Assembly: GCA_903906425.1 (NCBI GenBank) | Contig: CAIVKH010000325.1 | Span: forward strand, 38,920 to 102,919 | DNA from: an uncultured bacterium | GTDB taxonomy: Bacteria; Verrucomicrobiota; Kiritimatiellia; CAIVKH01 | Reading direction: 5' to 3' | DNA: 64,000 nucleotides | Part shown: positions 4,671 to 38,300 of the stretch, piece after piece | How the letters are laid out: each line of letters opens with the position of its first letter | How positions within the stretch are numbered: the stretch's first letter is position 1 | Made by a program: the position numbers and the translations under genes | Notes under the pieces: generated by a model | Databases searched by the model: none | What the model saw: only the letters and a program-made list of their open reading frames with translations | What the model was told of the DNA's origin: nothing

Positions 4671-4680
4671 TGTTCGTCCT

Positions 4681-5418: not shown

Positions 5419-5513
5419 GGATTGTCACTGGGTCAGGTGTGCAATCCACGCAAGTGGAAACGATGCGATTATCGCAGCTTTTGTCGCTCAACAACGGACA
5501 CTTGCTGATTCAA

Positions 5514-6077: not shown

Positions 6078-6107
6078 TCTCCTTCTTTTAGTTCGAGTGT
6101 TCCTTTT

Positions 6108-6596: not shown

Positions 6597-6885
6597 GTTG
6601 AATATGCGACTGTTGTAAATCTGTAGTGGCTATTGGCGGAGATTCCCTGTCGAGTGGCAGGAACGGAACGGCAGGCTGCTTGAGAATGGACCGTCAATGG
6701 GCTTCGAGGTCTGATGGGGCGGACAAATCGAGTTCGCCGCTTCCGCTTGGGCGATGTCCAATTCTTTTCAGAGTGGGGAATTCCCCCGAACAATTTGCAG
6801 TGGCGGGAGGGATGCCCAATTGAGCCAACTAGGATCTTGATGGACGGGCACGAGCAGTCAGACCCTAGCTGCGGAACAAAGACAA

Positions 6886-7659
6886 CTACATCTTCGTCTT
6901 GATGAATTTGATATCTGTCCGGAACTGCTGAATACAATCGTAGTCCGAGGTGTTCAAATCCATTCCCCTTCCGTTGATTGAAATTAGTGCATCAACGCTG
7001 TCCGATGTATCCATGCTCATCACCATTTTGGCGAATGCCGGGAAACGGTCATAGTATTCGCACAATCTGTCCAGTGTATCGTTCATTGAGTCTGGCCCTC
7101 TTTGTGCATAAACAGTCTGTATTACCACCCATTTCGCCCAGTCGAGTTCGGACCATGAACACCCGTGATTTCTCATTCGCTGGTGAATGTTTGAGACCAA
7201 CCTGCTTCCTTCGGTAGATGCCATAAGTTTCTCGAAGGACTTTTGCTCTCGGACATCTTTGCTTGAGGCAGAGGCACCCGCCATATTGGGACTATTTTCC
7301 ACCGTATCGCTGACGGAATGCTCAAGATGACTTTTGGAGCGGATTAGCAGAATAACGCAAACGACGGCAATTATAATTGCCACTATGCTAATCACCGTTG
7401 CTAATTGATAAGAAGATTGCGGTTCAGGAGCAGTCGCTTTGGTTGGCGATCTAGGTATTTCAATAGGTGCGTCACAATGCGGACAGTGAAACTGCGTATA
7501 AACCCTCATGGCGTGTTCGTAATCGCCAATTGGAATGGTCACAATCTTCTTGCAACTGTAGCAGGAGAACTTTTTCTCTGTTTCGAGACTTGAACCGCAG
7601 TATCGGCAAACCTTCGCTTCATCCTGAATCAATTCGGCACAATATTTGCACTTTGTCAT
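6886..7659 (-). CDS. Zinc-ribbon transmembrane protein
   Basis: MTKCKYCAELIQDEAKVCRYCGSSLE..CYSCKK..CPHCDAP followed by TM segment VISIVAIIIAVVCVILLI. Confidence 0.65.
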   Translation of the reverse strand: MTKCKYCAELIQDEAKVCRYCGSSLETEKKFSCYSCKKIVTIPIGDYEHAMRVYTQFHCPHCDAPIEIPRSPTKATAPEPQSSYQLATVISIVAIIIAVVCVILLIRSKSHLEHSVSDTVENSPNMAGASASSKDVREQKSFEKLMASTEGSRLVSNIHQRMRNHGCSWSELDWAKWVVIQTVYAQRGPDSMNDTLDRLCEYYDRFPAFAKMVMSMDTSDSVDALISINGRGMDLNTSDYDCIQQFRTDIKFIKTKM

Positions 7660-7671
7660 CGGATAGCGGCC

Positions 7672-9216
7672 TCAATAAACGACCCAAAGTCCTGTATCTT
7701 CGTCAAAGTGAACCCTGTATGTGCGAACCTGAAAGTTTCCGATGGCCGCACCACCCCCGATGGTCATTTCTCTCATGGCATCTGTTGTTCCCTGCTGATT
7801 AGCATTCAGCCTAGTTGCGGCATTCATTGCGTCCTGCTTCGTCTTGTATGCGCCGTAAAACCCACCATAGCGTTGTTTGAGGTATGTCGCCCGGTCTTGT
7901 GTCGCCTGTTGCTCCTGTCTCAATTGTTCCTTACCTCTGTTGATTGAAACTGCACGTTCTCGCTCCATTTCGGCGGCATTCGCAAGATCGGTGTCGCTAT
8001 CTACCGGCACGGCAAGAAAGGCGTACATACTTTTGCAACTGTCATCAATTGCTACTGCAACTTTGCCGTCATGTCGCTGCATTTCCTTCATTTGCAATAT
8101 GGTTTTGTCACCTATTTTCAAGAAACTGCTTTGTCTGCGTATAGCTGTAGGATAGGCATCCTCCAGAAGCAGACGGTTAAGCCGTTGCAATTCGTCTCCA
8201 GACGGATTGCTTGTCAACAATTGGAGGGTTTCATTCCTAAGCCTGATGTTTCCAAATCGTGTAGAATCATAAATGGTCTTAGTCTGAATGATATTTGCAA
8301 TATCTTCCAAAAGTGCAATTTCACGATTTATCGGTGTGTTAAGACGCTTCACTTCGTCGTTCGCTGACGGTATCTTTATACCATACGTCTGTCCTAACCT
8401 CTTATCATATAACCACCATGTATTACCCTCTTTTCTTACTATATTTGGATACACTTTGCTTTCGACATATGGAATTAACTTGCGATCAACTACGCATCGT
8501 CCGTCATTGGATAGGTGTTCATAGAGAAATGCGGACAAGGGATTGGTCTTCATGGCAAGTTGATTTACAAAAGAGTTTATGTCCGAGACGTTGTTAAAGC
8601 TGAATAACATCCCTGATCCGGTTTTGTCATTGATGGGGTTGCAAAACGATGCCGTTTGTTCCCATTTCCAATCCCAGTCGCCGTCTTGACCACAGGCTGC
8701 TGCAAACCACTTGATCATGTCTTCGTTCACGAGTTGTTGTCCCATGCTATAACGAACGGCAACAATTGTGTGCTTCTGATTAAAGTAGGTAATAAAATAA
8801 TTAGTGTTCTGAGTTTCAGCCCATCGAAATTTGTCATAAGATAACAAATCAGCCCGAGATGAACGTACCGACATGAACGGATCACCGAATATACGCTTAG
8901 GATAACCTTCCCCTTTGCCCAGATAATCGGCAATAAAAGTGCCATTCGTGCCCGATGATGAATCAATTGGATTCCTGCCAGAGTAATTGCGGGTAGTGCC
9001 TGCCGCAAGACGCCTTGTCACATTCGCTTTTATTGCCATCCATTGTGCGCTGTTGGGCTGGACCTTTATCACGGATGACTCGATTGGCGTGTCTTGTGTT
9101 TTGGGGGATATCGCAGTTTGCGGTGGAGGAGAAGTGACTTCCTGCGGAGCCGCCTTCACTTCTTCACAAAATGGCCACAAACTGAATATGATTATTGACC
9201 ACAGGATTTTATTCAT
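7672..9216 (-). CDS. Predicted secreted hypothetical protein
   Basis: 514-aa ORF with N-terminal signal peptide MNKILWSIIIFSLWPFCEEVKAAPQ. Confidence 0.7.
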   Translation of the reverse strand: MNKILWSIIIFSLWPFCEEVKAAPQEVTSPPPQTAISPKTQDTPIESSVIKVQPNSAQWMAIKANVTRRLAAGTTRNYSGRNPIDSSSGTNGTFIADYLGKGEGYPKRIFGDPFMSVRSSRADLLSYDKFRWAETQNTNYFITYFNQKHTIVAVRYSMGQQLVNEDMIKWFAAACGQDGDWDWKWEQTASFCNPINDKTGSGMLFSFNNVSDINSFVNQLAMKTNPLSAFLYEHLSNDGRCVVDRKLIPYVESKVYPNIVRKEGNTWWLYDKRLGQTYGIKIPSANDEVKRLNTPINREIALLEDIANIIQTKTIYDSTRFGNIRLRNETLQLLTSNPSGDELQRLNRLLLEDAYPTAIRRQSSFLKIGDKTILQMKEMQRHDGKVAVAIDDSCKSMYAFLAVPVDSDTDLANAAEMERERAVSINRGKEQLRQEQQATQDRATYLKQRYGGFYGAYKTKQDAMNAATRLNANQQGTTDAMREMTIGGGAAIGNFQVRTYRVHFDEDTGLWVVY

Positions 9217-9265
9217 CTTGCTTTGCTCTCATTTGAATTAGCGATGTGTAATGAGACTCTCATCA

Positions 9266-9349
9266 TCATGTCGCTTTCATGCCGACAACTTTTTCGTCTG
9301 CCGCAATATGGTTGTGGCAGTACGGGCACTCAAATTTGATGTCGGCCAT
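9266..9349 (-). pseudogene. Truncated zinc-ribbon ORF (27 aa)
   Basis: MADIKFECPYCHNHIAADEKVVGMKAT*; resembles N-terminus of the 12184-12573 protein. Confidence 0.5.
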
Positions 9350-9884
9350 GTTTCACCTCTGCTCGTTCAGCGGTCAGATTCATGTTTACCATTTGACCCC
9401 CCGCCTGCCGATTTGATTTTTTGCGCTTGCTGCGACGTTGATGAACCGACGCAAGGGACAAACGCATTCTCTGGCACAGGTATGCCCATGTCATGCCCCC
9501 GAAGTGAAAACCGTTTTCCGCCTCAAGGGATGCCTTGCGACTAGTGCGACGAGCTTTTGTTTTTAACGGGACTCCCGAAACGAAAAATCCCACTCACGGA
9601 TCAAGGGATGCCTTTTGCTTTTGACGAATTTTGGATTTCGCAGCGGAAGGGTTCCCACGGCCCTGAATGAAGTGGCCCAAGAATTATTGTTTCAGCAGTG
9701 GCAAAGTCAGGCGTTCAGGATGTCCCAATCCTCGCTCGTCCTGCGTCGGAGGATGAGGTGTTCGATGGGGCAGCTAAACAATTTGTCGCCATTGAGATTC
9801 ACGGCGTCGTGGCGGATCGGCCCAAAATCTTGCGACGGACGCAGTCGGATGTAATCTTACTGGTAAGAATAACAGGAGAATACC

Positions 9885-10199
9885 GTGGAAGCATTGGCAA
9901 CAACACGCATGTCCTCAAAGGGGCAGGTCGTAATACCGGAGGACATCCGCAACCGAATGGGACTGCGGACAGGCAACCAGTTCGTCGTGGTGGGCAGGAA
10001 AGATGTGGTGATTTTGAAAAGCATCCAGCCGCCCTCGATGGATGAATTTGACAGCCTGATTCAGGAAACCCGGAGGCAGGCTCGTCGGGCTGGTATGAAG
10101 CCGACGGCGATTTCAAAAGCGATTCATTGTGCTCGGACGAATTCAGACGATGGCAAAAGTTGTTCGCAGTCGACTGCGGAACGGAAGCAGAAGTCGTAA
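9885..10199 (+). CDS. AbrB/MazE/SpoVT-type DNA-binding antitoxin (apparently orphan)
   Basis: TTRMSSKGQVVIPEDIRNRMGLRTGNQFVVVGRKDVVILKSI; no PIN-type toxin ORF follows. Confidence 0.8.
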   Translation: MEALATTRMSSKGQVVIPEDIRNRMGLRTGNQFVVVGRKDVVILKSIQPPSMDEFDSLIQETRRQARRAGMKPTAISKAIHCARTNSDDGKSCSQSTAERKQKS

Positions 10200-10258
10200 A
10201 TGTTGTTTGATGTAAAAGAAAAATTCCCAAAATGGGAACATCGGGGTATATTGACGTA

Positions 10259-10552
10259 ATGAGAGTGATTGCCCGTTCAACGCTGCGAAAGTTCTGGGAG
10301 CGACATCCAGATGCGGAGCAGCCTTTGCGTGCATGGCATTCAGAAGCGGAAAAAGCTGAATGGCGGATTCCGGGGGACATCGAGCGGGATTATCCATCGG
10401 CCAGCATCGTGGGCGGAAATCGTGTTGTGTTCAACGTCTGCGGGAACAAGTACCGGCTTGTGGTGAAGGTGCTGTATGCGTTCGGTGTGGCGTATATCCG
10501 TTTCATTGGCAAACACGGCGATTATGACAGGATAGATGTGGAGACGATCTGA
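10259..10552 (+). CDS. higB: HigB family toxin (mRNA interferase-like)
   Basis: MRVIARSTLRKFWERHPDAEQPLRAWHSEAEKAEWRIPGDIERDYPSASIVGGNRVVFNVCGNKYRLVVKVLYAFGVAYIRFIGKHGDYDRIDVETI. Confidence 0.87.
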   Translation: MRVIARSTLRKFWERHPDAEQPLRAWHSEAEKAEWRIPGDIERDYPSASIVGGNRVVFNVCGNKYRLVVKVLYAFGVAYIRFIGKHGDYDRIDVETI

Positions 10553-10905
10553 TGAAAATTCAACCGATCAAGAGCGAACGGGATCACGAACTGGCGTTGA
10601 AGGAAATTGACCGTCTGTCGGACTCAAAACCGAATACGGCAAACGGCGATTTACTGGAATTGTGGGTGCTATTGGTGGAAGCCTACGAAGCCAAACATCA
10701 CGCCATTCCGCCGCCCGATCCGATTGAGGCGATTAAATTCCGCATGGAACAGATGGGGCTATCCAACACGGATCTTGCTGAATATCTGGGCGGCAAGAAT
10801 CGAGTATCCGAAGTCATGGGCCGCAAACGAAGCCTGTCGGTGAACATGATGAGGCGGTTGCACAAGGAATTGCATATTCCGGCAGATTCGCTGTTGGCGG
10901 TCTGA
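10552..10905 (+). CDS. higA: HigA family HTH antitoxin
   Basis: PDPIEAIKFRMEQMGLSNTDLAEYLGGKNRVSEVMGRKRSLSVNMMRRLHKELHIPADSLL; start overlaps the higB stop. Confidence 0.87.
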   Translation: MKIQPIKSERDHELALKEIDRLSDSKPNTANGDLLELWVLLVEAYEAKHHAIPPPDPIEAIKFRMEQMGLSNTDLAEYLGGKNRVSEVMGRKRSLSVNMMRRLHKELHIPADSLLAV

Positions 10906-10949
10906 TTGTGCGGCTTTGTTCAGAAAAACGTCCATGTTTTCAGTGTTCC

Positions 10950-10968
10950 GGTGGACATAAAGTGGACA
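10950..10968 (+). promoter_or_regulatory. Candidate integrase arm-type sites, right end
   Basis: GGTGGACATAAAGTGGACA; same octamer family as 1271-1290. Confidence 0.5.
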
Positions 10969-11086
10969 CTTTCGACTCTTTTCCCGCTTTTCTCGCTTGT
11001 GTTGTTGATTTTAACGTCCGTCGCAACTGACTAAAAGGCATTGGATTCTGCGATAAATTGGCGATTCCAAACACTAGCCCGGTGCT

Positions 11087-11133
11087 CTTGACATGGAAGA
11101 GGTCACAGGTTCAAGTCCTGTATTGCCCACCAG
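11087..11133 (+). repeat. Right att direct repeat (partial tRNA-Val 3' copy)
   Basis: CTTGACATGGAAGAGGTCACAGGTTCAAGTCCTGTATTGCCCACCAG. Confidence 0.92.
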
Positions 11134-11288
11134 CCCAATACTTCAATTTTCCTAAAGAATTCTGCTGTTTTTGGCGTGTCCGTCATTCGGGGCTTTTGCG
11201 CCAGTTTGGTTGGCAATAGGTTTTCGCCGCCAGCCACCTTCCCAACTGAAAATGGACTTTCGTTGAGCGGGGCGGGTTCCGGTTTTCG

Positions 11289-11597
11289 TCAAGCTGCGGC
11301 ACGGTGGACGTCCGAGTCAGCCGGGTGCAGTTCTTCGCCAATCCACTCTTTGCCATCCCATGAAAACCACCACTGCCCTTCGTTGAATTCAATACCTGCC
11401 AAGCGTGGATATTTCAGGACAACGTGATGCCACGGATGAGCATTGGCAGCGATGAAGGGTGCCTTGTTATGCGACACGAAAACACGGATGTCAGGAGAGC
11501 CGTCGCATCTGTATGAAACAAATACGGGCTGCTTCACTTTCTGTGCCAACAGATCATCGGACAGACTTGCCGTGATGATCTTCTGTTTCGGGTTCAT
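11289..11597 (-). CDS. Hypothetical protein
   Basis: 102-aa ORF MNPKQKIITASLSDDLLAQKVKQPVFVSYRCDGSPDIRVFVSHNKAPFIAANAHPWHHVVLKYPRLAGIEFNEGQWWFSWDGKEWIGEEL. Confidence 0.5.
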   Translation of the reverse strand: MNPKQKIITASLSDDLLAQKVKQPVFVSYRCDGSPDIRVFVSHNKAPFIAANAHPWHHVVLKYPRLAGIEFNEGQWWFSWDGKEWIGEELHPADSDVHRAAA

Positions 11598-11709
11598 GCC
11601 AGAAGTTTATCCAAAATATTCAACATAGCGAGCATGATAAAAGGCACAGACTGAAATTCATCACAGCTGCATTGCCGCAGCGATGAATTTGAAAACCATT
11701 GGGGGTGAA

Positions 11710-11946
11710 CTACGGCGAAAAAACATGCGGTTCGGGAATCACGTCCGCTTCGGCTGATGAGCGTCTTTGGCGCAGAACTTGCGTCATTTCAGGTAAGTCG
11801 GAGATGCGATAATCATTGCCGTCCAACTTGACCCATTCCCCATCCGTCACCATGACGGGTTTCTTGCCGTGCTCCGCCCAATATGCCTCAACGTAATCTT
11901 CAAGGATCGCTTCGGCGTTCACTTCACATGACGATGTTGTTCTCAT
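11710..11946 (-). CDS. Hypothetical protein
   Basis: 78-aa ORF; weak evidence. Confidence 0.35.
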   Translation of the reverse strand: MRTTSSCEVNAEAILEDYVEAYWAEHGKKPVMVTDGEWVKLDGNDYRISDLPEMTQVLRQRRSSAEADVIPEPHVFSP

Positions 11947-12183
11947 GGCTACATCCCATCCTGTCGGGTGAACATTAGCCCGTTTTTCAAGTCCGACAAT
12001 CGTGTTTCGTTCCCACAGGCAGGCGATGCGTCGGATCCTTCTAATTGATTAAATTCGGCGTTTGTTCGTCACTTGGTGTGATTTTGTGACGGGAAACCTT
12101 TGGTTCGAAAAAGACTCGTCAGCGATCAGTCTTGTGCCTGCTCAATTCATCAGGCATAATTCCGCGCAGAGGGAAGAACGATC

Positions 12184-12573
12184 ATGATGGACATTGAATT
12201 CAATTGCCCTAGGTGCAAAGAACGCATCGTTTCTGACGAAAGCATTATTGGCAGAGAAGCGAATTGCCCTCATTGCAATTCGGCCATATTCATCAAAGAC
12301 GTCTCCACGGTTTTGATGGCGGACAGAAAATTGTGCATCTCCTGCAAGGCCGATATCCCGAAGGACAGCATAAATTGTCCCACATGCGGAGTATCGCAGT
12401 CGGCCAAACAAAAGCCTGCGGAATCGGATCTGAAAAGATGCATGACCTGCGGTGCCCACATCGACAGCGATGCAGTCATTTGCCCCAAATGCAAAACACG
12501 TCAGTCGAAGAAAGCCACGCCAGACGCTTCGCACCCGCCTCCTCGCAGCCATGAGTCCAGCATGGGTTTTTGA
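12184..12573 (+). CDS. Multi zinc-ribbon protein
   Basis: MMDIEFNCPRCKERIVSDESIIGREANCPHC...CISCKADIPKDSINCPTCG...CMTCGAHIDSDAVICPKCK. Confidence 0.7.
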   Translation: MMDIEFNCPRCKERIVSDESIIGREANCPHCNSAIFIKDVSTVLMADRKLCISCKADIPKDSINCPTCGVSQSAKQKPAESDLKRCMTCGAHIDSDAVICPKCKTRQSKKATPDASHPPPRSHESSMGF

Positions 12574-12756
12574 GGTCATCTAGTTCAGGCATTTCTTTAC
12601 TGAATGACCTTGGCGGCAATGACGGGAGGTGCAACGCAGCCCCAAAACCGATTGGGTGCCCTGAGCGACTCAATATGAGTATTTCATCAGGGACATGCCC
12701 GTGAAACAAACTACCAGCCCCGCATTGATCTGATGAGGAGCTTGCTCTCAGAAAAT

Positions 12757-12803
12757 TTCCAATGATTGGAAATTCACGCTGCGCAAAGTTCCAATCATTG
12801 GAA
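12757..12803. repeat. Paired-dyad element, copy 2
   Basis: Dyads centred 12764 and 12796 (32 bp apart). Confidence 0.97.
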
Positions 12804-14336: not shown

Positions 14337-15758
14337 TTGATGAATGTTGGTTCACAAAAATTATGGCTGGCGCGTGCTCGTAGCGTGATGTGGCACATCA
14401 ACGCGGGCTGGTGGCTGCATTTTTTCCTGCTGCCGGCGCTCGTGATCGCCGCCGGTTGCTCGGCGCTGATCCTCATCGCCCGCAGCCACGGCTGGGCTTC
14501 GCGGCCCTTCGTCATCGCGGCCGCCGCCTTGATCTTTCTCGCCGCGCTGGCGGTGCGACGGGTTGCGCGTAGAAAATTCTTCCGGCTCGACGACGCTCTC
14601 GTCCGCATCGAATCGAACGCGCGGTTGAACAACCGCCTAACGTGTGCCCGCGCGGCCGTCGGCGAGTGGCCGGAATTTGACGCGAACGCTGGCGCGGGAC
14701 TGCGCTGGAATTTTCGCCGCATTCTGATTCCGCTCGCCGCCGCCGCAATTTGCCTCGCCGGTTCCGCGCTCGTTCCGATTCGTTCTGCCGCCGATGCCGC
14801 GTCGCACGAAATTCAGGAACCATCGGCGTGGACGCAAACGCAGCAGTGGATGGACTCGCTCAAGCAGGATGAAGTCGTCCAGCCGAAAGACCTCGACGCA
14901 ATCAAGGACCAGCTCGACGCGCTACGGCGGCAGCCGAAAGATCAGTGGTATGGCCACAACAGCCTCGAAGCCGGCGACCAGCTCCGCGACCAGACGCAGC
15001 AGGGTATTCAGGAACTCGACCGTAATCTTGAGCTCGCCGATTCCGCGCTGAGCCAGTTGATGCAGGCCGCCGAAGAACAGGCCGGCGCGCTTGGAAAAGA
15101 CGGCAAGGAGCAGAACGGCGCAAACGGAAAATCCGGCGACGGGAAAAATGGCGAAAGCAAAACCGGCAACGGCCTCGACAAGCAGACGCAGGAGGCGCTG
15201 CAGAAACAAATGGAGAAAGTGATCGCCGGACTGAAATCCGGATCGCTCAAGCTCGACCCGAAGACGATGCAGCAGCTTTCGAAAATTGATCCGTCGAAGC
15301 TGAAGATGATCGATCCGAAGCAGCTCAAGGAATGCAAGGCGAAGCTCTCGAAATGCAGCAGCGCGTGCAAAAATTGTACGCTTGGCAAGGGCGGCAAAGA
15401 CGCGCAATTCGCCGTCCTTGTCGAAGCGATGGCGCACGGAAATTCGACGTGTAACAAACCCGGCGCGGGCGGTCCCGGCGGCGGCGGCCCACCGGCGCAG
15501 CTCACATTCAGCAAGACCGAGGAAAAAGCGAAGCTCGATGGTCAGGAAGGCGTATCAAGTTCGAGCATGGCGGACGCCGCGATCGGCGATACCGTCGGCG
15601 TCATCAACTCCGCGCACAAAGTGGATCAATCCGAATTCAAAGGCTTGCAGTCTGGCGGCGCGGCGCAGGCCGGCGGCGCGGGCGAAGCCGTCTGGAAAAC
15701 CGAGGTCTTGCCAGAAGAGCAGGCCGCACTGGAGCGATATTTCAGCGAGAAGAAATGA
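14337..15758 (+). CDS. Membrane-anchored protein with Gln/Lys/Gly-rich low-complexity region (MoxR/VWA operon)
   Basis: Two N-terminal TM segments then a charged low-complexity region; immediately upstream of MoxR. Confidence 0.65.
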   Translation: MMNVGSQKLWLARARSVMWHINAGWWLHFFLLPALVIAAGCSALILIARSHGWASRPFVIAAAALIFLAALAVRRVARRKFFRLDDALVRIESNARLNNRLTCARAAVGEWPEFDANAGAGLRWNFRRILIPLAAAAICLAGSALVPIRSAADAASHEIQEPSAWTQTQQWMDSLKQDEVVQPKDLDAIKDQLDALRRQPKDQWYGHNSLEAGDQLRDQTQQGIQELDRNLELADSALSQLMQAAEEQAGALGKDGKEQNGANGKSGDGKNGESKTGNGLDKQTQEALQKQMEKVIAGLKSGSLKLDPKTMQQLSKIDPSKLKMIDPKQLKECKAKLSKCSSACKNCTLGKGGKDAQFAVLVEAMAHGNSTCNKPGAGGPGGGGPPAQLTFSKTEEKAKLDGQEGVSSSSMADAAIGDTVGVINSAHKVDQSEFKGLQSGGAAQAGGAGEAVWKTEVLPEEQAALERYFSEKK

Positions 15759-16790: not shown

Positions 16791-18589
16791 ATTTCCAATC
16801 ATTGGAAATTTGCGGGCGCGTGATTTCCAATCATTGGAAACAATCGCAAATTTTACTCATCATCGCGATGGCCGCGCTCGCTTCCGCGAATGCGTCCGCC
16901 GCCGGCCTCCACACGCCGGTCAACAACATCGATCCTCGCAGCGGAATTTCGATCTATGTGGATTCGCCGTTCGACAAGCTTCCACTGTGCGGGTTCGCGC
17001 CGGTTCGGCTCGTCGTGCGGAACGACTCGGCGAAGCGCCACTCGTGGGATTTTGTGTTCATCAGTTCGTCCATGTACGACCAGCGGCAGACGTTCCGGTC
17101 GGGCACGACGGTGGATGTTGATGCGAAGGCGGAACGAATCGTTGAGGTGATGGTGCCGCTGATTCCCTCGCCGACCGGCTACGCATATCCGCAACTCACG
17201 ACGCACGTGTCGGGCTACGGCTGCGAAGGAAACTCGATGGCGATGTGGTCCGCCGGCGGCTACGCGGCGGCCGCATCGACCGAGGCGACATTCGCGATGT
17301 CCGATTCGCTGGCTCTGACAACGTGGAGTTTGCTCGAAACAAAATTGCGCGGCGGCAGTTCGTCGGCCGGCGCAGCGCCGGCCGGCCGGGACATTCCCGG
17401 CTTTCGCTTCGATGCTGCCGCCGCTCCCGGCGATTATCGCGGCTGGCTCGGCTGCGATTCCGTCTGGCTCAGCGAGGATGACTGGCAGAGCTTCGACACG
17501 ATCAAGCGGCAGGCGCTGCTCGACTGGACCAAACTTGGAGGCCGTCTGCACGTCTGCCACAGCGGCGCCGCGCCATCTGCGCTCGCAGATCTCTCCACCG
17601 GCGATGAGACCTTGGGCCTCGGAGTGGTCCTCCGCACGTCGCACGCCAACGCATCGCGACTCGCGGATGAAATCGTGCGGACGATCCGCAAGGAGCAAAG
17701 CCTGCTGCGCACGATCAACAACGGCTTCACGTCAACTTGGCCGCTGCGAAAAGGCGTGCCGGAAATCGTCGTCCACTCGACGCTCATTTTGCTTTTCGTT
17801 TTCGGATTCGCCGTGCTGATCGGCCCGGTGAATTTGTTCGCCCTCGCAAAAAAGAAAATGCACATGCACCTTTTTTGGACGACGCCTGCGCTCTCGATCA
17901 TCGCCAGCGTCGTGCTGGGTCTCGTCATCATTTTACAGGACGGTTTCGGCGGCCGCGGCAACCGCTTCACCGCCGTCTATCTCGATCACGTCGCTCACAA
18001 ATCGTTCGTCGCGCAGGAACAGATCAGCCGCACCGGCGTCCTGCTTTCGCGCACGATTCCGCTGCACGAGCCGTGCTTCATCACCGCCGTCAATACGGAC
18101 GCCGGTTTCATGCATCGCTCGCGCAGCTACGAGCTTGTCGGCGGCACGCTCTCCGGCGACTGGTTCTCGAGCCGCACCGTCCAGGGCCAGCTTCTCTACG
18201 CCGCGCAATCTAGCCGCGCCCGCGTCGAAATCGGCACCGCCGCCGGCGCGCCCGCAGTCATCTCCGGCATTGGAGCGACCCTCGCAGAAATTTATTACCG
18301 CGACGAGAAGGGGAAAATCTGGCGCGCGGAAAATCTCAAGCAGGGCGAGCGAGTGCAGATGAAATCCGCAGCCGAAAGCCAGTTCAAAGAATGGTGGCGG
18401 CATCAAACCGGGACCGCCGACGCCGTTCTGGCCGCGCGCCTCAACGCCCAGCCCGACCAAGACAACTTCTTCTTCGCGACCGCCACCGGCAACACCGAGC
18501 AGATCATCCCGACGCTTCCTGCGATCAAATGGAAGCAGGACGCGCTCCTCTATTTCGGCCCCGTCGCGGCCATCGGGGGCGGAAAATGA
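16787..18589 (+). CDS. Membrane/secreted hypothetical protein of the MoxR operon
   Basis: 600-aa ORF; starts in ATGA overlap with MoxR stop; N-terminus encoded by paired-dyad copy 3; TM near VVHSTLILLFVFGFAVLIGPVNLFALAKKK. Confidence 0.7.
   Translation: MNFQSLEICGRVISNHWKQSQILLIIAMAALASANASAAGLHTPVNNIDPRSGISIYVDSPFDKLPLCGFAPVRLVVRNDSAKRHSWDFVFISSSMYDQRQTFRSGTTVDVDAKAERIVEVMVPLIPSPTGYAYPQLTTHVSGYGCEGNSMAMWSAGGYAAAASTEATFAMSDSLALTTWSLLETKLRGGSSSAGAAPAGRDIPGFRFDAAAAPGDYRGWLGCDSVWLSEDDWQSFDTIKRQALLDWTKLGGRLHVCHSGAAPSALADLSTGDETLGLGVVLRTSHANASRLADEIVRTIRKEQSLLRTINNGFTSTWPLRKGVPEIVVHSTLILLFVFGFAVLIGPVNLFALAKKKMHMHLFWTTPALSIIASVVLGLVIILQDGFGGRGNRFTAVYLDHVAHKSFVAQEQISRTGVLLSRTIPLHEPCFITAVNTDAGFMHRSRSYELVGGTLSGDWFSSRTVQGQLLYAAQSSRARVEIGTAAGAPAVISGIGATLAEIYYRDEKGKIWRAENLKQGERVQMKSAAESQFKEWWRHQTGTADAVLAARLNAQPDQDNFFFATATGNTEQIIPTLPAIKWKQDALLYFGPVAAIGGGK
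16793..16839. repeat. Paired-dyad element, copy 3 (inside 5' end of the 16787 ORF)
   Basis: Dyads centred 16800 and 16832. Confidence 0.97.
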
Positions 18590-18600: not shown

Positions 18601-18647
18601 TTCCAATCATTGGAAATTCCGGCCGCGCAAACTTCCAATCATTGGAA
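18601..18647. repeat. Paired-dyad element, copy 4
   Basis: Dyads centred 18608 and 18640. Confidence 0.97.
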
Positions 18648-19684: not shown

Positions 19685-21082
19685 ATGAACCTCGCTCTCA
19701 CATCCGACCTCCTCAGCCCGATGCTCGTCAAAGAGCTTCGGCAAGGCATCAAGTCGAAGGGCTTCATGTTTGCCTTTCTGCTGATGCAAGGCCTGATGGT
19801 TTTTTGCGTGCTGATGTATCTCACCGCGGTCGTCAGCGAACATGACGCGTCATCATTCAACACGCTTTTCTGGTTCTGCCTCGGCGCGACGCTCATCGTC
19901 ATCACGCCGCTGCGCGCGATGGGCGCGCTGAACCAGGAAATCAAAAGTAACACGATCGAACTGATTTTCTTAACGCGGCTCGGCGCGTGGCGGATCGTCG
20001 CCGGCAAATGGCTCGCGCTTTTCTGGCAGGCTTTGCTGCTCACCAGTGGCGCCCTGCCGTATTTGATTTTCCGCTACTATTTCGGCGGCGTGAACATCGC
20101 CGACGACTTGCTGGTTCTTTTTTACATGCTCCTTGGCTCCGCCGTCCTGACCGCCGTCGGCGTCTGCCTGTCGGCCTTTTCGCTATGGCTGCGCGCCTTC
20201 GTCGTCGTCGGCGTGATCATTCTTTCGGTCAGCCTTATTGCGATGTCCGTCCGTTCCAGCCTCGGCGGGCCGTTCGCCGGGACACCGCCCATGGATCTCT
20301 TCTGGGCGTCCGTTCTCGCCCTGATCCGCGCCGTGCTCATCGTGCTGCTCGCCATCGCATGGGGCGCGAGCCGCATCGCGCCGCCCGCGGAAAATTTCGC
20401 AATCTGGAAACGCCTTCTCTCTGTGGCAATCATCGCGCTGCTGGCCGTCACACACATTATGGATGAAACCATGCTTCTGCTATCCGGCCTCGTCATCGTG
20501 ATTCCGATGTGCTCCGACGCACTTGGCGAACTGCCGCGATTCATCCCGTCAATTTATATTCCGTTCGCCCGCCGCGGCTTTTTCGGCAGACTCGCCGGCG
20601 CCCTGCTTTATCCAGGTTGGCCGGCTGGGGTTTTCTTCACGCTCATCCTCTGTGGAATTTTCAGCCTCATCGCGTTCACGGGCAGGATCGCGCTGAACGA
20701 TCACAAAATCGCGATGTTCGCCGCGCTGCCCGGCGCGCTGCTGTTCCCTCTCGCGCTCGTCCTGACATTCAAACCGCGCACGGAAAAAGTCATGAAGGGC
20801 TACCTCGCTTTTCAAATCGCATTCATCGTCCTCACCATTGTCGGCGGCATTCTTCACGACGAATTCAGCAGCATCTCGCTCATCCCGCTCACCTTCTTTC
20901 CGCCGTGCGCATTCATCCTGAACCTCGTCGAGCAACGCGAAGCCGCCGACTGGATCGCGCTCACCGCGTGCGTCAGCGTATTGAGCCTGAGCCTGCTGCT
21001 GATCCGCATGAGGCCGGTCTTCGCCAAAATCCGCGAACTCGAACGCGCCGCGGCCGGACCGCCGCAGCAAAAGTTCCAATGA
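19685..21082 (+). CDS. ABC transporter permease (multi-TM)
   Basis: Multiple TM segments, follows ATPase; stop codon TGA at 21080-21082 lies inside the first dyad of copy 5. Confidence 0.8.
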   Translation: MNLALTSDLLSPMLVKELRQGIKSKGFMFAFLLMQGLMVFCVLMYLTAVVSEHDASSFNTLFWFCLGATLIVITPLRAMGALNQEIKSNTIELIFLTRLGAWRIVAGKWLALFWQALLLTSGALPYLIFRYYFGGVNIADDLLVLFYMLLGSAVLTAVGVCLSAFSLWLRAFVVVGVIILSVSLIAMSVRSSLGGPFAGTPPMDLFWASVLALIRAVLIVLLAIAWGASRIAPPAENFAIWKRLLSVAIIALLAVTHIMDETMLLLSGLVIVIPMCSDALGELPRFIPSIYIPFARRGFFGRLAGALLYPGWPAGVFFTLILCGIFSLIAFTGRIALNDHKIAMFAALPGALLFPLALVLTFKPRTEKVMKGYLAFQIAFIVLTIVGGILHDEFSSISLIPLTFFPPCAFILNLVEQREAADWIALTACVSVLSLSLLLIRMRPVFAKIRELERAAAGPPQQKFQ

Positions 21083-21120
21083 TTGGAAATTTCTCGCCCT
21101 GCAACTTCCAATCATTGGAA
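21074..21120. repeat. Paired-dyad element, copy 5 (supplies stop of 19685 CDS)
   Basis: Dyads centred 21081 and 21113. Confidence 0.97.
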
Positions 21121-21140: not shown

Positions 21141-22436
21141 ATGAACGCCGCCGACATCAGCGATTTTCTGAATCCGGTTCTGGTGAAGGAACTGCGGCAG
21201 GGCATGAAATCGCGCGTCTTCGCGATCGCCTTCATGCTGATGCAGGGCCTTGCTGCCCTCTGCGTGGCGATCCAGGTTCTTTCGGCAGAACAATCCCGCG
21301 ACACCCTCGCGATCACCGTCATTTTCTGGATTTGCGTCGGCGCGCCGCTGCTGATTCTGCTGCCGCTCCGCTCCATCGGAGCGATCTACAACGAGCACCG
21401 ACAAAATACTTTTTCGCTCATCCTGCTCACGCGCCTCACGCCGTGGCGGATCGTCCTCGGCAAATGGATATCGCTCATGTCGCAGGCATTTCTCATCGCG
21501 TGCGCGATTTTGCCGTATGCCGTGCTGCGCTATTACCTCGGCGGCGTGAACATCGCACTCGACCTGCTCATCCTCGCGCTCATCGTCAGCACCTGCGCAT
21601 TTCTCTGCGCGGGCGGTCTGCTGATCTCCACCGTCAAACATCCGTGGCGCGCCGTCGGAATCGGCACGGCGCTGCTCGTTGTTTTTTCTCCGCTCGGCAT
21701 CGCCGTCGTGCTGCCGCTGGGCCTGCTAATTTACGGAATGTCCGGCCGGCCCGGCCTGATCCCCGCGCAGCTTTTTCTCGCCGCCGGCGCGCTGCTGCAC
21801 TTCACCGCCTGCCGCTACGCCGACACGCGATTCAACCAGAGAACCGACGGCCGCATCGCCGCGTTCATCTCGCTGGCGCTTCTCATCGCGTGCATCCAGG
21901 GCGCCGCAAAACTGCCTGCCGTCTATTGCGCGTTGCCGATCACGGTTCCGCCCGCTGCCGCATTCTTCCATCGCATCATCGCACTCGCGTTTCCGCGCGT
22001 AGACGGGCGAAAGCTCCTTTTCATTTCGCTCTCCGCATTTTCTCTGCTCGTACTCGCCATGACACTTGTGAGTCCGCTGCCCGGGCCGGGGTCGCTTTAT
22101 TTTTTTGCCACACTCACGACCGCCTGCGCGCTGCTGTGGCTTTGCATGTTTCGGATCTGGGACGCGCCGAGCGTTCACTATTTCGTCGTATTCATCATCG
22201 CGCTCGTCTGCATGACCGTCCTCTTCACGACTTCCGACAACCTCGCGGCGATCCCGACGATCTTCCAAATGCTCCCGCTATCATCCTTCATGCTCTGCGC
22301 CCTCGACAAAGCCGACGCCGCCTATCTCCACATCAACCTCGCCATCGCCGCGCTGTCGCTCATCGCCCTCGCACGCGTCGCACTTGCGCCAGCCCGCGCG
22401 AACCGGAAAGATTCGATCCATGCAACCGTGGCCTGA
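21141..22436 (+). CDS. ABC transporter permease (multi-TM), paralog of preceding gene
   Basis: DFLNPVLVKELRQGMKSRVFAIAFMLMQGLAAL parallels DLLSPMLVKELRQGIKSKGFMFAFLLMQGLMVF of 19685. Confidence 0.8.
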   Translation: MNAADISDFLNPVLVKELRQGMKSRVFAIAFMLMQGLAALCVAIQVLSAEQSRDTLAITVIFWICVGAPLLILLPLRSIGAIYNEHRQNTFSLILLTRLTPWRIVLGKWISLMSQAFLIACAILPYAVLRYYLGGVNIALDLLILALIVSTCAFLCAGGLLISTVKHPWRAVGIGTALLVVFSPLGIAVVLPLGLLIYGMSGRPGLIPAQLFLAAGALLHFTACRYADTRFNQRTDGRIAAFISLALLIACIQGAAKLPAVYCALPITVPPAAAFFHRIIALAFPRVDGRKLLFISLSAFSLLVLAMTLVSPLPGPGSLYFFATLTTACALLWLCMFRIWDAPSVHYFVVFIIALVCMTVLFTTSDNLAAIPTIFQMLPLSSFMLCALDKADAAYLHINLAIAALSLIALARVALAPARANRKDSIHATVA

Positions 22437-23355
22437 CAACGACCGGTGGCGCGAAGTTCGCGCGAGCGCGCGCAAGGCCGCATCGCACCTGCGCCTGCCG
22501 TTCCACCGCCAGACCTGGCGCGGCACCGTCGGCAACTGGATGGGCGCCGGCACCGGCAGCTCGATTGATTTTCAGGACCACCGCCCGTACCTGCCCGGCG
22601 ACGACCCGCGCTACATCGACTGGCAGGCCTACGCCCGCACCGGCAACTACATCATGAAACTTTACCGCGAAGAAGTTTCCCCGCGCCTCGACCTCGTCCT
22701 CGACGCCAGCGCCTCGATGTTCCTCTCGCCCGAAAAACAAACGCGCTCGCTCGAACTTTTTTATTTCTGCGTCGAATCCGCCGCCCGCGCCGCCGCATCG
22801 CTGCGCACATTTCTCATCCGCGGCGAAACCGTCCAGATCGTCACCACCGACGCGATCCAATCCGGCGCGATCACCGCAAACTTCCAATCATTGGAAAACA
22901 CGAACACGCAAACTTCCAATGATTGGAAAAAATCCGTAACGCGGACACTCCTGTCCGCGCCATCGTTCGCAAAAGTCCCCTTCCGCCCCGGCTCCATGCG
23001 CGTCTGCATTTCCGATCTGTTGTTTCCCGGCGAACCCGAAGCGATGATCGCGCCGCTCGCCGCCGCGCGCGGACGCGGCCTCGTGCTCGCGCCGTACGAC
23101 GCGAGCGAGGCGAAACTCGAATGGGACGGCAACGTCGAATTCGTCGAATGCGAAACTTTCGCGCAGCGAATCCAACGCGTGGACATCGGCCTGCGCGAGC
23201 GCTATGACGTGGCCTACAAACGCCACTTCGATCTTTGGCGCGACGCCACCCGCCGCTACGGCATCACCTTCGCCCGCGTCCCCGCCGAATCTGATTTGAT
23301 CGTCGCCCTTCGCGCCCACGCCCTGCCGGAAGGAGCGGCCGAAGTGTGGACCTGA
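22420..23355 (+). CDS. DUF58 domain protein
   Basis: GSSIDFQDHRPYLPGDDPRYIDWQAYARTGNYIMKLYREEVSPRLDLVLDASASM; contains paired-dyad copy 6 in frame. Confidence 0.88.
   Translation: MQPWPDNDRWREVRASARKAASHLRLPFHRQTWRGTVGNWMGAGTGSSIDFQDHRPYLPGDDPRYIDWQAYARTGNYIMKLYREEVSPRLDLVLDASASMFLSPEKQTRSLELFYFCVESAARAAASLRTFLIRGETVQIVTTDAIQSGAITANFQSLENTNTQTSNDWKKSVTRTLLSAPSFAKVPFRPGSMRVCISDLLFPGEPEAMIAPLAAARGRGLVLAPYDASEAKLEWDGNVEFVECETFAQRIQRVDIGLRERYDVAYKRHFDLWRDATRRYGITFARVPAESDLIVALRAHALPEGAAEVWT
22882..22928. repeat. Paired-dyad element, copy 6 (inside DUF58 CDS, in frame)
   Basis: Dyads centred 22889 and 22921; encodes NFQSLENTNTQTSNDWKK. Confidence 0.97.
22940..22959. repeat. Second palindromic repeat inside DUF58 CDS
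   Basis: CGCGGACACTCCTGTCCGCG: GCGGACA/TGTCCGC dyad directly after copy 6. Confidence 0.7.
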
Positions 23356-25133
23356 CCTTCGCCAATCCCCTCGGCCTGCTCGCGCTCGCGGGAATTCCCG
23401 CTGTGCTCGCGATTCATTTCTTCCAGAACAAAACCCGCCGCGTCGAAATCAGCACGATGTTCCTCATCGAAGACCTCACGCGCGAAAGCGTGCGCGGCGG
23501 GATGTGGGAGCGAATCCGCAACTCGCCGCTGCTCTGGCTGCAGTTGCTCGCCGTCCTGCTGCTCACGTGGCTGCTGGTCCAGCCGATGTGGCTGCGATCC
23601 GAATCCGTCCAGCAAGCCATCGTCATCCTCGACAGCTCCGTTTCGATGCGGCCGTTTCTCGACAAAATGAACGCCACGTTGCGGCACGATGTGAACAAGC
23701 TCGCCGGAGCCGCCGCGCGATCCGAATGGACCGTCATCGAATCCGACACCGCGCGCGGCACCGTCTATTCCGGCGGCGAAGCCGGGGAACTTCTCGACGC
23801 CGTCGCGAAGTGGAAGCCGCGCAGCGGCCATCACGACTTCCAGCCGGCATTCCAACTCGCCCGCGATTTGCAGCGAAAGAATGGCGTCATCGTTTTCGTC
23901 AGCAACCGCCGCCCCGAAGGGCTGCCCGCCGGGATGGAACTCCTTGCTGTCGGCGAACCGATCGAGAACTGCGGCTTCGCCGGTGCGCGCGTCGATGTCG
24001 TCAGCAACAAAACCGTCTGGTCTGCGCTGCTGATGAATTACGGAAAATCCGCGCAGCAGCGCCGCTACCACCTTGAAATCGGGAACTCCAAAACGCCCGA
24101 CGAAACCGTCGAACTCGAACCCGGCGGCATCCGCGCCATTCGCGGCGAATGGCCGCGCGGCGCGGCCAAATGCAGACTCGTTCTCGATCCCGGTCGCTTC
24201 GCTCTCGACGACGAAATGCCGCTTGTCCTTCCGCAGTCCAAACAACTCACCGCCGTTTTTTCCGCCTCCGCCGAAACGCAGCCGTTCATTGAGAAAATCG
24301 CCGGAAGCCTCGACGCCGTCACACAGGACACCACCGGCAGTCCCGATCTGACATTCGCATTTCTCCGCGTCGGCATGGCCGCGCTGCCGCAAAATCGCAA
24401 CGGCATATTTTTTCTCTTCGACGAAAAACCGCGCGAATCTCTCCGATCCGGTTTGATCGTCGCAGATCATCATCCGCTCATGAACGGCATCACGTGGCAG
24501 GGACTTCTCACGCGCGACGAGAAAGGAATCACTGCGACAAATTCCGACCGCACACTTTTGTGGCAAGGTTCAACGCCGCTGATTTTCCTCCGCGAATACG
24601 GCCGCACCCATCAACTCGTCTTCAATTTCGACGTTGCCCACGCCAACGTGGACCGTCTCCCCGCATTTGTCCTGCTGATCCGCCGATTCGTCGAAACTCT
24701 GCGCTCCGAGAAAATCGCCTTCGAAGCCCGGAACGTCGAACTCCACCAGCCGCTGGAAATTGCTGCCAAACTTTCAGATGAACCTGTGGAACTCGTCGAA
24801 GGTAGGGCGGTGTCGCCGACACCGCCGAGCGGCGCGCTGGGCCAGCGCGCCCTACCATTACCGCCCGGCATCGCCTCGCTTCGTGCCCCCGACGAGCCGG
24901 GCTTCTTCGAAATCCGGCAGGGCACGAAGAAACTTTTCGAAGGCGCGTCGCATTTCGCCGACACGCGCGAGGCCGACTTCAAGCTGACGAAATCCGAGAA
25001 CACGATCACCGCCCGCGCCCGCGAACTCACGATCCGCAACAGCCAGCGCGATATGATGACACCGCTCTGGCTCGTGTTGCTCGCGGGAACGCTTTTGAGC
25101 GGTTGGGCCGTCGCGGAACGGAGGAGGCGATGA
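23346..25133 (+). CDS. BatA/VWA-domain N-terminal membrane protein
   Basis: FANPLGLLALAGIPAVLAIHFFQNKTRRVEISTMFLIEDL...; VILDSSVSMRPF VWA-like; C-terminal TM. Confidence 0.82.
   Translation: MDLTFANPLGLLALAGIPAVLAIHFFQNKTRRVEISTMFLIEDLTRESVRGGMWERIRNSPLLWLQLLAVLLLTWLLVQPMWLRSESVQQAIVILDSSVSMRPFLDKMNATLRHDVNKLAGAAARSEWTVIESDTARGTVYSGGEAGELLDAVAKWKPRSGHHDFQPAFQLARDLQRKNGVIVFVSNRRPEGLPAGMELLAVGEPIENCGFAGARVDVVSNKTVWSALLMNYGKSAQQRRYHLEIGNSKTPDETVELEPGGIRAIRGEWPRGAAKCRLVLDPGRFALDDEMPLVLPQSKQLTAVFSASAETQPFIEKIAGSLDAVTQDTTGSPDLTFAFLRVGMAALPQNRNGIFFLFDEKPRESLRSGLIVADHHPLMNGITWQGLLTRDEKGITATNSDRTLLWQGSTPLIFLREYGRTHQLVFNFDVAHANVDRLPAFVLLIRRFVETLRSEKIAFEARNVELHQPLEIAAKLSDEPVELVEGRAVSPTPPSGALGQRALPLPPGIASLRAPDEPGFFEIRQGTKKLFEGASHFADTREADFKLTKSENTITARARELTIRNSQRDMMTPLWLVLLAGTLLSGWAVAERRRR
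24801..24856. repeat. GGTAGGGCG...CGCCCTACC palindromic repeat inside CDS
   Basis: GGTAGGGCGGTGTCGCCGACACCGCCGAGCGGCGCGCTGGGCCAGCGCGCCCTACC with terminal and internal inverted repeats; in frame within 23346-25133. Confidence 0.75.
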
Positions 25134-25145
25134 ACGTCCAGCTCA

Positions 25146-25330
25146 TCAGGCCTGAAGGGCCGAGATTTGATAGCCCAGGGCAACGCCCTGAGTCCCCGAA
25201 GAATGAAACATCAAAAGCCCTGAAGGGGCGAAACCCGGAAACCATTCCGCCCCTTCAGGGCTTGAAAATAATCTCGCGCTTTTTACCCAGGGCGTTGCCC
25301 TGGGCTGTCACCTTGAGGCCCCTTCGTGAC
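25146..25330. repeat. Inverted-repeat element (CCCTGAAGGGGCG / GCCCAGGGCAACGCCCTG family)
   Basis: GCCCAGGGCAACGCCCTGAG and AGCCCTGAAGGGGCG mirrored by CGCCCCTTCAGGGCTT and CCCAGGGCGTTGCCCTGGGCTGTCACC. Confidence 0.75.
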
Positions 25331-25360
25331 TTTCGGCAGCTCCAGTTCGATGGCGATGTT

Positions 25361-25407
25361 TTCCAATCATTGGAATTATGCGGCCGCTTGATTTCCAATG
25401 ATTGGAA
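25361..25407. repeat. Paired-dyad element, copy 7
   Basis: Dyads centred 25368 and 25400. Confidence 0.97.
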
Positions 25408-25428
25408 ATTTTCAAAACGGCGGTTGCG

Positions 25429-25605
25429 ATGAAATCCTTCTTGTCCCCAAAGACGACTTGGCGTCGGCTCGTCATAATTGCGGTCATAACGCTGATTGTA
25501 TGCGTCGCCGTCTGGATGATGTTCTTGAATTGCTGTTGTTCGAATTGGGACCTGAGCACTTTCATGGATGCAGTTGACGAAAAGAGGATCGGACATCCTC
25601 CATGA
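25429..25605 (+). CDS. Small single-TM hypothetical protein
   Basis: MKSFLSPKTTWRRLVIIAVITLIVCVAVWMMFLNCCCSNWDLSTFMDAVDEKRIGHPP. Confidence 0.4.
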   Translation: MKSFLSPKTTWRRLVIIAVITLIVCVAVWMMFLNCCCSNWDLSTFMDAVDEKRIGHPP

Positions 25606-32313: not shown

Positions 32314-32361
32314 TTCCAATGATTGGAAATTTCCGCAGCCGGTCTTTTCCAATCATTGGAA
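32314..32361. repeat. Paired-dyad element, copy 8 (33-bp spacing)
   Basis: Dyads centred 32321 and 32354. Confidence 0.97.
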
Positions 32362-33224: not shown

Positions 33225-33271
33225 TTCCAATGATTGGAAATTCCGATCGCGCATTTTTCCAATGATTGGAA
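33225..33271. repeat. Paired-dyad element, copy 9
   Basis: Dyads centred 33232 and 33264. Confidence 0.97.
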
Positions 33272-35173: not shown

Positions 35174-35220
35174 TTCCAATGATTGGAAACTGGCGCGGCG
35201 CAAACTTCCAATCATTGGAA
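35174..35220. repeat. Paired-dyad element, copy 10
   Basis: Dyads centred 35181 and 35213. Confidence 0.97.
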
Positions 35221-35315: not shown

Positions 35316-38300
35316 ATGAAAAAGACATGTGAACTGCCGTCCGGTTTCGTGCGGGTCCTCGCCGCGCTTTTTTTCTGTCTAGCCTTCACGTTGCAGGCGC
35401 AGACGCCGACGGTGGTGCGGATCATGCCGGTGGGCGATTCGATCACGGATGGGTCGTCCTACAGTTCGCCGGGCAATGGCGGGCCGGGGGGCGGCTACCG
35501 GCGGCCGCTGTGGCTGAGCCTGACGAATGCGGGTTATAATGTGGATTATGTGGGGCTGCTGACGATCAATCCGGCCACGGATGTGCCGATGCCGACGCAT
35601 CACGAGGGGCACAGCGGGTGGAAGATTGATCAGATTTATTCGAACATGGTCAATGCGGTGTTCGGGAATACGGAGGACCCGGATGTGTTGCTGATCATGA
35701 TCGGGACAAATGATTTCGGCGGCGGCTACGATGTGAATAATGCGACGAACCGGATTAATCAACTGATCGGGTTGGTGACGACGCGGTGGCCATATTGCAA
35801 GGTGATCGTGGCGAGTCTGACGCGGCGGGGGGCCCCGTATGAGGCGAACATCCAGACGAATTTCAACAATTCGCTGCCGGGGATTGTCTCGAATTATCAG
35901 GCGGTGGGGAAGCAGGTCTATTTTACGGACATGCACAGCGCGGTGCCGTTGTCGGATTTTCCGGACAGTCTGCATCCGAATACGAACGGGTATGTGAAGA
36001 TGGCGACGAACTGGTTCCCGGCGATTACGAATGTGATCAGTCCGCAGGGGACGACGAATGCGCCGGAGATCAAGCGGCTGTCCATTTCGTCCGGGTTCAC
36101 AAATGTGTACGTGACGTTCAGCAAGCCGGTGGATGATGCGACGGCGACGAACATCGACAATTATTTCATTAATGGCGGATTGACAATTCTGGGCGCGTCG
36201 CTGGAGCCGGTGAACAAACGCGACCTGATACTGACAACGACGCCGATGGCGCTTCATACATTCTACACATTGATCATCACGGGGGTCGTGGATCGGACGG
36301 CGTCGGCGACGATGATTGACATCACAATCACGAATTTCCAGACATACGGCGCGTCGGTGCGCGGGGTGTATAACAACGTGCCGGAGGCGGGGGATTACCG
36401 GCTGGTGTATTCGCTGAACATTCCGAATGCGCCGAATTACTCGGTTGGCATCACCTATGACACCGATCTTCATGCCTGTGCGTCTAACTTTACGCGGGTG
36501 GCGTATTACCTGGAAGTGCAGCCGGCGGGCGGTGCGCTGGATTATGCGTGGGTTTCATTCGATGCGATGACGACGAATATCACGCAGATCGGGGTGCCGA
36601 CGTTTGGAAGCGGAGCGAATTTTCAGATGACCATCACGAACATGAATGTGCTGTCGAGCATGCCGAGCATCCTGAATGGCACGAACATGACCGGGGGTAA
36701 TATCGAGTTTTGGCCCAGCAATTATACGCAGGTCAATGCGGCGGGTGTGCCGAATGCCAGCGCTGCGAATTACGACTGGGGAGATCAGGAGTCCACCAGC
36801 GGCAACTACGGTTCCATGCAGGTCCACAATCACGATGCGAGCCAGACGATTTTCGCGTTTAATGATTGGAACAAAGGAGTCAATACCGATCTGGGCATCG
36901 GTAATGATCCGACAAACGCAGCAACGACGGATTGGACGTTCGCCAACAACGGAAGCGCCTACACCGTCAAAGTGTTGCAGGTTTTTGCGAAGCTCGCCAG
37001 CAACACGCCTCCGCTGATCACGAGTTCTTATGGGCTGAGCTATTCGACCGCGCAAATCAATTTCAGCATCCCTGTCGCCGATGATGCGACGGATGTCACG
37101 TTCTATGCCGTCGGCGGTTTGTCGGTCTCGAATGTCGTGATTGATACGGTGACGCGCCAGACCGTGACGCTCGTGACCTCGATGCAGACGGCCGGTGTGA
37201 CGTACACGGCGGTGGTCAATAATGTGCATGACCGCGCGTCCAGCAACTCGGCCGTCATCGTGACGAACACGCTGGCGACATTCCAGGGGCCGGCGGTGAA
37301 TGGAGCGTTCAACAATGTGCTGGATGCGACGAATTATAGCATCGTGTACTCGCTGAACATTTCTAATGGGGCGGCGTACAACACGACGGGCGTGCCCTAT
37401 GATCTGGATTTGCACAACTACATCGGCGCGTACAGCCGCATCGCGTATTACATGGAATTGCAGACGGCGACGGGCCTGCCGAGTTACATCTGGGTTGCGC
37501 TGGATCCGTTCACGACAAATGCCGCGCTGCTCGGCGTGCCGGCGAAATCCGGCAGCCCGATCTTCCAGCAATACGTGAGCAACATGACCGTGCAGTCGAG
37601 CGTTGCGGGCATCGTGCAGGGCAACGGCATAACGACGGGCAACATGGAGTTCTGGCCGTGGGACTATACGGCGAACAACACCAATAACATTCCTGGCGCG
37701 TCGAATACGGCGTTCGACTGGGGCGATTCATGCTCGTCGAATGCTGGTGGTCACGCCTGCATGCAGATCCATAATTACAGTGCCAGTCAGACCCTGTTCG
37801 CCTTCAACAACTGGGGTGCGGCAGCCGGTGGCACCACGGCCGTTGGTATCGGAAAGGATCCGAACTTGGCCCGCGCGAATTACAATCCCGATTGGACGTT
37901 TGCGGCCAACGCAACTAATTATATTGTGAAAACGCTTCAAGTTTACGCGCTGCCCGTCTCCAATGTCGCGCCGTCCATCATCAGCGTTATTCCTCAGTCG
38001 TTCAGCAACGTGATGATGTCGTTTAGCAAGCCGCTCGATGACGGTTCGATTGTGCTGACGAATTTCTCGATTGGCGGTTTGACTGTGCTAAGCGCGACGC
38101 TCGATCCCGTGACCAAGACGCGCGTTGCGTTGATCACGTCGCCGCAGACGCCGAGCATGTTGTACACCTCCGTTGTCAGCAACGTGCGTGACCGCACGGC
38201 GAGCGCTGCGCCGATTGCGCCGAATTCATCGGTCACGTTCCGCGCGCTTCCCGTCAATGGCGTGTATAACAATGTGCCGGAGGCAGTGAATTACAATCTG

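Follow-up and report, generated by a model that had tools for sequence, protein, structure and literature searches.

Described systems of repeated palindromes

In enterobacteria, BIME/REP sites are intergenic palindromes that are bound by chromosome-acting proteins. REPIN/REP doublets are short, mostly extragenic palindromes that occur in hundreds to thousands of copies per genome without target duplication (PMC3116915). DNA-uptake sequences of Haemophilus and Neisseria are likewise found in thousands of near-invariant copies at fairly even spacing (PMC7811141, PMC1939737), while Rickettsia palindromic elements are about 150 bp long, carry a conserved peptide, and lie within genes in nearly half of the cases (reviewed in PMC10969869).

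The paired dyad described here has something in common with each of these. Like REPIN/REP doublets with their RAYT, it is a high-copy, mostly extragenic palindrome doublet with a looser spacer and no target duplication, but it differs in its fixed phasing of 31-33 bp, triples at the same step, even genomic spacing, a general lack of flanking RAYT genes, and palindromes with no apparent orientation rule. Like uptake sequences, it is near-invariant, present in thousands of copies, fairly evenly distributed, and enriched outside genes with some copies in frame, yet it is a 47-bp palindromic pair with only about 5% of copies in genes. It resembles the Rickettsia elements as palindromic DNA that sits in frame in unrelated genes and adds peptide, but those are longer than its 47 bp, several of its frames are read, and again about 5% of copies are in genes. 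From the enterobacterial BIME/REP sites it is set apart by an unrelated sequence, strict spacing, and a binding protein that is here only putative. No paper describing the dyad motif turned up in the literature that was searched.

A paired dyad in frame within a DUF58 gene

The window, a 64-kb stretch of DNA from the 6.66-Mb genome of an uncultured member of the class Kiritimatiellia, contains a DUF58 reading frame at 22420-23355 (+; 311 aa; PF01882, E=2.3e-15). This frame stays open across dyad 1, TTCCAATCATTGGAA (22882-22896), and dyad 2, TTCCAATGATTGGAA (22914-22928), where it encodes NFQSLENTNTQTSNDWKK, and also through a further palindrome, GCGGACACTCCTGTCCGC (22941-22958), read as SVTRTLLSAP; NFQSLENTNTQTSNDWK is a segment of the same protein. 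A preliminary description had traced the frame through copy 6 of the element and then this second dyad, and its residues were correct. The gene overlaps both neighbouring genes, so that it lies in an operon with no intergenic room, and the nearest empty gap of at least 40 nt is 6.7 kb distant. The features of the locus are as follows.

22882-22928, no strand: paired-dyad element, copy 6 of 17 in the window, dyads 32 nt apart start to start
22897-22913: 17-nt spacer of this element, between dyad 1 and dyad 2
22870-22923, + strand: 54 nt missing from all 18 homologues, residues 151-168 by alignment
22941-22958, no strand: perfect 7-bp dyad GCGGACACTCCTGTCCGC, a single occurrence in the genome, not part of the element

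Eighteen DUF58 homologues, at about 30-51% identity, were retrieved from 347 searched genomes of the class, and in the alignment all 18 lack 18 residues at exactly the position of the element. Between two alignment anchors the DUF58 protein has 74 residues versus 56-60 in the homologues, and subtracting 18 aa leaves a loop of the same length as in the closest homologues, the SVTRTLLSA stretch included. The edges of the 54-nt segment are ambiguous by several nucleotides; the alignment sets the right edge before Trp169, a family-invariant residue encoded by the TGG of dyad 2. An AlphaFold2 model, with pLDDT below 50 for residues 162-177 between a helix (151-160) and a strand (193-197), places the element region in a low-confidence linker between two structured segments. 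The comparison with homologues supports a lineage-specific, 54-nt (18 aa) net in-frame insertion in a variable linker of the DUF58 protein, the age and exact edges of which cannot be set at the identity of about one half that the nearest homologues show. Insertion between two structured segments, as proposed earlier, is supported by the 18 additional residues relative to 18 of 18 homologues and by the low-pLDDT linker, and the alignment of orthologues suggested as a check gave a difference of 18 aa precisely there, where some 20-30 had been anticipated.

The same proposal had counted the second palindrome as inserted. It is present in the sequence, but it has 1 match in the 6.66-Mb genome and 1 in the window at up to 2 mismatches, and at least one match is found in 38% of shuffled windows. 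Since it is single in the genome, is often matched in shuffles, and belongs to a stretch whose length is common to the homologues, the second palindrome is judged a product of chance in GC-rich coding sequence and not an inserted element.

Geometry and conservation of the element family

At up to 2 mismatches the window holds 34 dyads, versus 0.12 expected, arranged as 17 pairs. In addition to the DUF58 copy, these are:

934-980: element, left flank of the tRNA-Val island
12757-12803: element, right flank of the tRNA-Val island
16793-16839: element
18601-18647: element
21074-21120: element upstream of the DUF58 copy, overlapping the stop codon of gene 19685-21082 (KFQ*)
25361-25407: element downstream of the DUF58 copy, in gap 25133-25602
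32314-32361: element with 33-nt spacing
33225-33271: element
35174-35220: element
43554-43600: element with one mismatch
48754-48800: element
51090-51136: element with one mismatch
55225-55271: element
58061-58108: element with 33-nt spacing and one mismatch
61454-61500: element
61792-61838: element, 338 nt from the preceding one

Other features of the window include a single reading frame of 8.2 kb (35316-43523) whose internal repeats measure about 950 nt, a tandem array of 42-nt units (58316-58566), and, in the gap downstream of a BatA-like gene, an Acido-Lenti-1 RNA (RF01687; 25148-25192, -) scoring 37.5 against a gathering threshold of 37. Rfam returned no match at the DUF58 element.

Exact copies in the whole genome number 2,777 for the dyad and 1,024 for the pair. 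Cluster, spacing, and position statistics were taken from a 690-kb sample, about 10% of this one draft genome (5.4% contamination). The 15-bp consensus is TTCCAAT(C/G)ATTGGAA, and dyads with up to 2 mismatches form 158 pairs, 18 triples, and 7 quadruples in the sample; with only 14 singles, the doublet is the basic unit. The step between dyads is 32 bp (192 cases) or 33 bp (23), which, like the 20-23 and 29-33 bp found elsewhere, is close to an integral number of helical turns. The centre base is G or C in 407 of 412 dyads. When pairs are oriented, 1.3% of dyad positions depart from the consensus versus 37% of positions in the 17-nt spacer, with the 1.3% being a lower bound because dyads were gathered at up to 2 mismatches and decay is understated. 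Within the first 444 kb there are 199 exact dyads, 54 with one mismatch, and 7 with two, with no decaying tail. Conservation fades about 7 nt outside the element, and in the sample no covariation of the flanking arms was detected beyond the dyad, and a hairpin that extends past it was rejected on this ground.

Distribution along the chromosome

Genes were called with a custom codon-score finder (coding fraction 0.86), which makes positions close to gene starts approximate. Only 9 of 183 elements (about 5%) lie well inside genes versus 71% of random positions, which also sets the family apart from a Rickettsia palindromic element, for which insertion into genes is frequent. Among gaps of 100-249 nt an element occurs in 14 of 19 convergent, 30 of 59 tandem, and 11 of 25 divergent ones.

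Could the pair be a transcription terminator or mRNA-end hairpin? It folds on one strand as a 15-bp stem (-20.6 kcal/mol, z -8) that might end or stabilise transcripts, and in tandem gaps elements lie closer to the upstream stop codon. However, among divergent gaps 100-600 nt long, where transcripts do not end, 44-55% carry an element; orientation relative to genes shows no preference (25:24), complementary centres are not preferred, and there are in-frame copies inside genes. We regard this explanation as very improbable, and a strand-specific intrinsic terminator at transcript 3' ends was rejected on the divergent-gap copies and the 25:24 orientation. Because the arms do not covary and centres are complementary in only 80 of 151 pairs, nothing indicates a strand hairpin as the conserved unit.

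The elements are also evenly spaced. Distances between them average 3.4 kb with a CV of 0.50 for all elements; when each gap contributes a single element it is 0.55 versus 0.81 +/- 0.08 under a null of 2000 random-gap draws that kept gap type and length class, and 0 of the 2000 simulations were as low. Distances below 1 kb number 2 of 161 (joined contigs) versus 40 under a Poisson null, and the pair at 61454-61500 and 61792-61838 is the sole one less than 500 nt apart in the sample. The nearest other element is a median of 2.8 kb from in-gene copies versus 1.1 kb from random gene-interior points (P=0.005), and these copies thus fill vacancies in the spacing; for the DUF58 copy the adjacent elements are 1.8 and 2.5 kb away.

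The window's longest stretch without an element, 980-12757, corresponds to a 9.9-kb island integrated at tRNA-Val (1155-11136), which has no paired dyad inside. A 50-nt duplication of the tRNA-Val 3' end marks its ends (1155-1204 and 11087-11136), its GC content is 0.50 versus 0.59, and it encodes a tyrosine integrase (1979-3085) and a PD-(D/E)XK nuclease-like protein (4681-5418). Elsewhere, region L102-L103 (G000 C8:1-40000) has 2 elements in 40 kb versus about 11 expected, and is possibly acquired or a contaminant contig.

The nine in-gene copies include those in a GH106 enzyme, Ffh, PlsY, NuoM, a PabB-PabC fusion, and a UDP-glucose-dehydrogenase-like (UGDH-like) protein. Domain limits place three of the copies (GH106, PabB-PabC, and NuoM) in linkers or at domain ends, and PlsY has about 7 residues more than a solved homologue. 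For Ffh and the UGDH-like protein, alignment with solved homologues shows the residues encoded by the element to be in register; since these two copies add no length, insertion is not the sole way into genes. From the alignment, the UGDH-like protein (L128:8818-10149, -) seems to have its usual catalytic Cys motif replaced.

A high-copy, near-invariant, fairly evenly spaced motif with a non-coding bias recalls the Haemophilus and Neisseria sequences (PMC7811141, PMC1939737), and would be expected if transforming DNA bearing the dyad were preferentially taken up and recombined as a form of self-recognition. In-register copies such as those of Ffh and the UGDH-like protein could then arise by substitution; the foreign island at tRNA-Val is free of elements, and ComEC is present. 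Known uptake sequences are, however, non-palindromic words, 65% (Haemophilus) or 35% (Neisseria) of which are in reading frames (PMC1939737) versus about 5% here, and point mutation is an unlikely source of a paired motif with 28 positions. ComEC was found in 14 of 14 genomes tried, dyad-free relatives included, and so fails to discriminate dyad genomes. An uptake sequence is therefore a rather unlikely explanation, though one that keeps real probability.

Dyads in other genomes and the question of copying

The dyad is present in 72 of the 347 genomes of the class in a patchy pattern; outside the class, no dyad pair was found in a 390-genome sample of the phylum, and named matches to the dyad are mostly Kiritimatiellae assemblies. 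Other families have a step of 29-33 bp, to which family f26 and related assemblies add a second of 20-23 bp; intermediate values are almost absent, and the two ranges are near 3 and 2 helical turns.

A triple array with 31+31 spacing is found at the leader of four copies of a beta-lactamase-like gene in genomes G046, G035 (two), and G029 of families f17 and f21. The four arrays are identical at 38-42 of 42 dyad positions. Their spacers are alike at 5-8 of 32 positions in four of six pairs, which is chance level for these comparisons between genera, at 18 of 32 between G046 and G029, and at 26 of 32 between the two G035 copies. Shared descent and joint transfer of gene and array are both possible; in either case, the dyads and their step have been kept and most spacers have not. 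An empty-site comparison of orthologous loci in G127 and G140 met very repetitive arrays and strongly diverged flanks.

G035 (4.8 Mb, same class) is rich in Y1_Tnp, with at least 150 matches. One of its Y1_Tnp genes (L192:12962-14011) is bracketed by triple dyad arrays at 12520-12597 and 14880-14957, both followed by a TGGCAC-like sequence. These two arrays suggested sigma-54 enhancer sites, a candidate rejected since a strict match within 250 nt occurs in only 1 of 13 clusters in f17 and 1 of 183 in the present genome.

Other genomes of the same family, f1, have 0-23 exact dyads, so selection alone is no explanation. Copying of elements must also occur, because a spacer consensus exists, similar spacer pairs are in excess, and dyad counts in the family range from 0 to 2,777. 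Such a burst is what a REPIN-like selfish element would produce if a transposase (RAYT or other) copied a palindrome doublet in trans and the copies piled up where harmless, with rare in-frame insertions being tolerated. The doublet unit with few singles, the intergenic bias, the common spacer consensus, the lack of target duplication, and the 54-nt insertion in the DUF58 gene all agree with this, and REPIN spacers are also less conserved than REPs (PMC3116915). The expected transposase association is nevertheless not general. Three of the genome's four Y1_Tnp matches have no dyad pair in the flanks present (one is on a 2.6-kb contig) and the fourth (L114) has one 1.1 kb away; flanking dyads are likewise not general at 30 Y1_Tnp loci in 14 other genomes, with exceptions in G035, and in G021, which has 34 dyads, Y1 is not matched. 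RAYT/REPIN machinery was rejected on these grounds. The step is moreover fixed at about three turns instead of being variable, an inverted-orientation rule is not apparent even though the pair can fold, and neither even distribution with mutual exclusion nor the in-register Ffh and UGDH-like copies are accounted for. A REPIN-like origin thus seems unlikely, yet of real probability and more credible than an uptake sequence.

Among 155 pairs, no target-site duplication exceeded shuffles at any offset or length, which counts against a transposon or MITE that duplicates its target in short flanking direct repeats. The mobility of the elements that the preliminary description had drawn from the DUF58 copy was consequently not borne out: target-site duplications are missing, Y1 transposase genes generally lack flanking dyads, and the Ffh and UGDH-like copies are in register without added residues.

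A proposed phased double site for a putative DNA-binding protein

The reading we prefer, with a probability of about one half, is that a putative dimeric protein recognises the element in double-stranded DNA as a phased double site that marks the chromosome. Each 15-bp dyad would be bound by one dimer, and the two (sometimes three or four) dimers would bind cooperatively on the same helix face, three turns apart. Binding of dimers to double-stranded DNA is suggested by the near-integral helical spacing, the G/C centre, the invariant dyads, the lack of arm covariation, and the indifference to strand. The even spacing and mutual exclusion of elements point to a role at the kilobase scale.

The sites would mark the chromosome about every 3.4 kb, and would be maintained by selection both for the dyads and for their spacing at long range. 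For this reason the role is likely to be chromosome-scale, as in nucleoid architecture or other genome-wide recognition, and not the regulation of single genes. Sites would usually be accommodated in intergenic gaps; in the DUF58 operon, which lacks intergenic space, the copy would have entered the gene by a 54-nt in-frame insertion into a variable surface linker.

More tentatively, and with clearly less than even odds, the elements may represent a new kind of chromosome mark. Phased double dyads would then be placed roughly every 3.4 kb, exclude one another within about 1 kb, be bound cooperatively by one putative protein, and be needed genome-wide so strongly that vacancies in gene-dense regions are filled inside reading frames, including that of the housekeeping gene ffh. 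Fixed geometry together with even spacing does suggest a protein-recognised chromosome mark and not ordinary repeat DNA. If the regular spacing holds genome-wide, this would be a near-invariant, evenly spaced, two-dimer recognition site on a bacterial chromosome, with about one site for every three genes and copies inside genes where intergenic room is lacking. A little-studied class would thereby gain a tractable model of how a chromosome is organised, or recognised as self, through specific sequences. In-frame copies such as that of the DUF58 gene would show such a site reshaping proteins.
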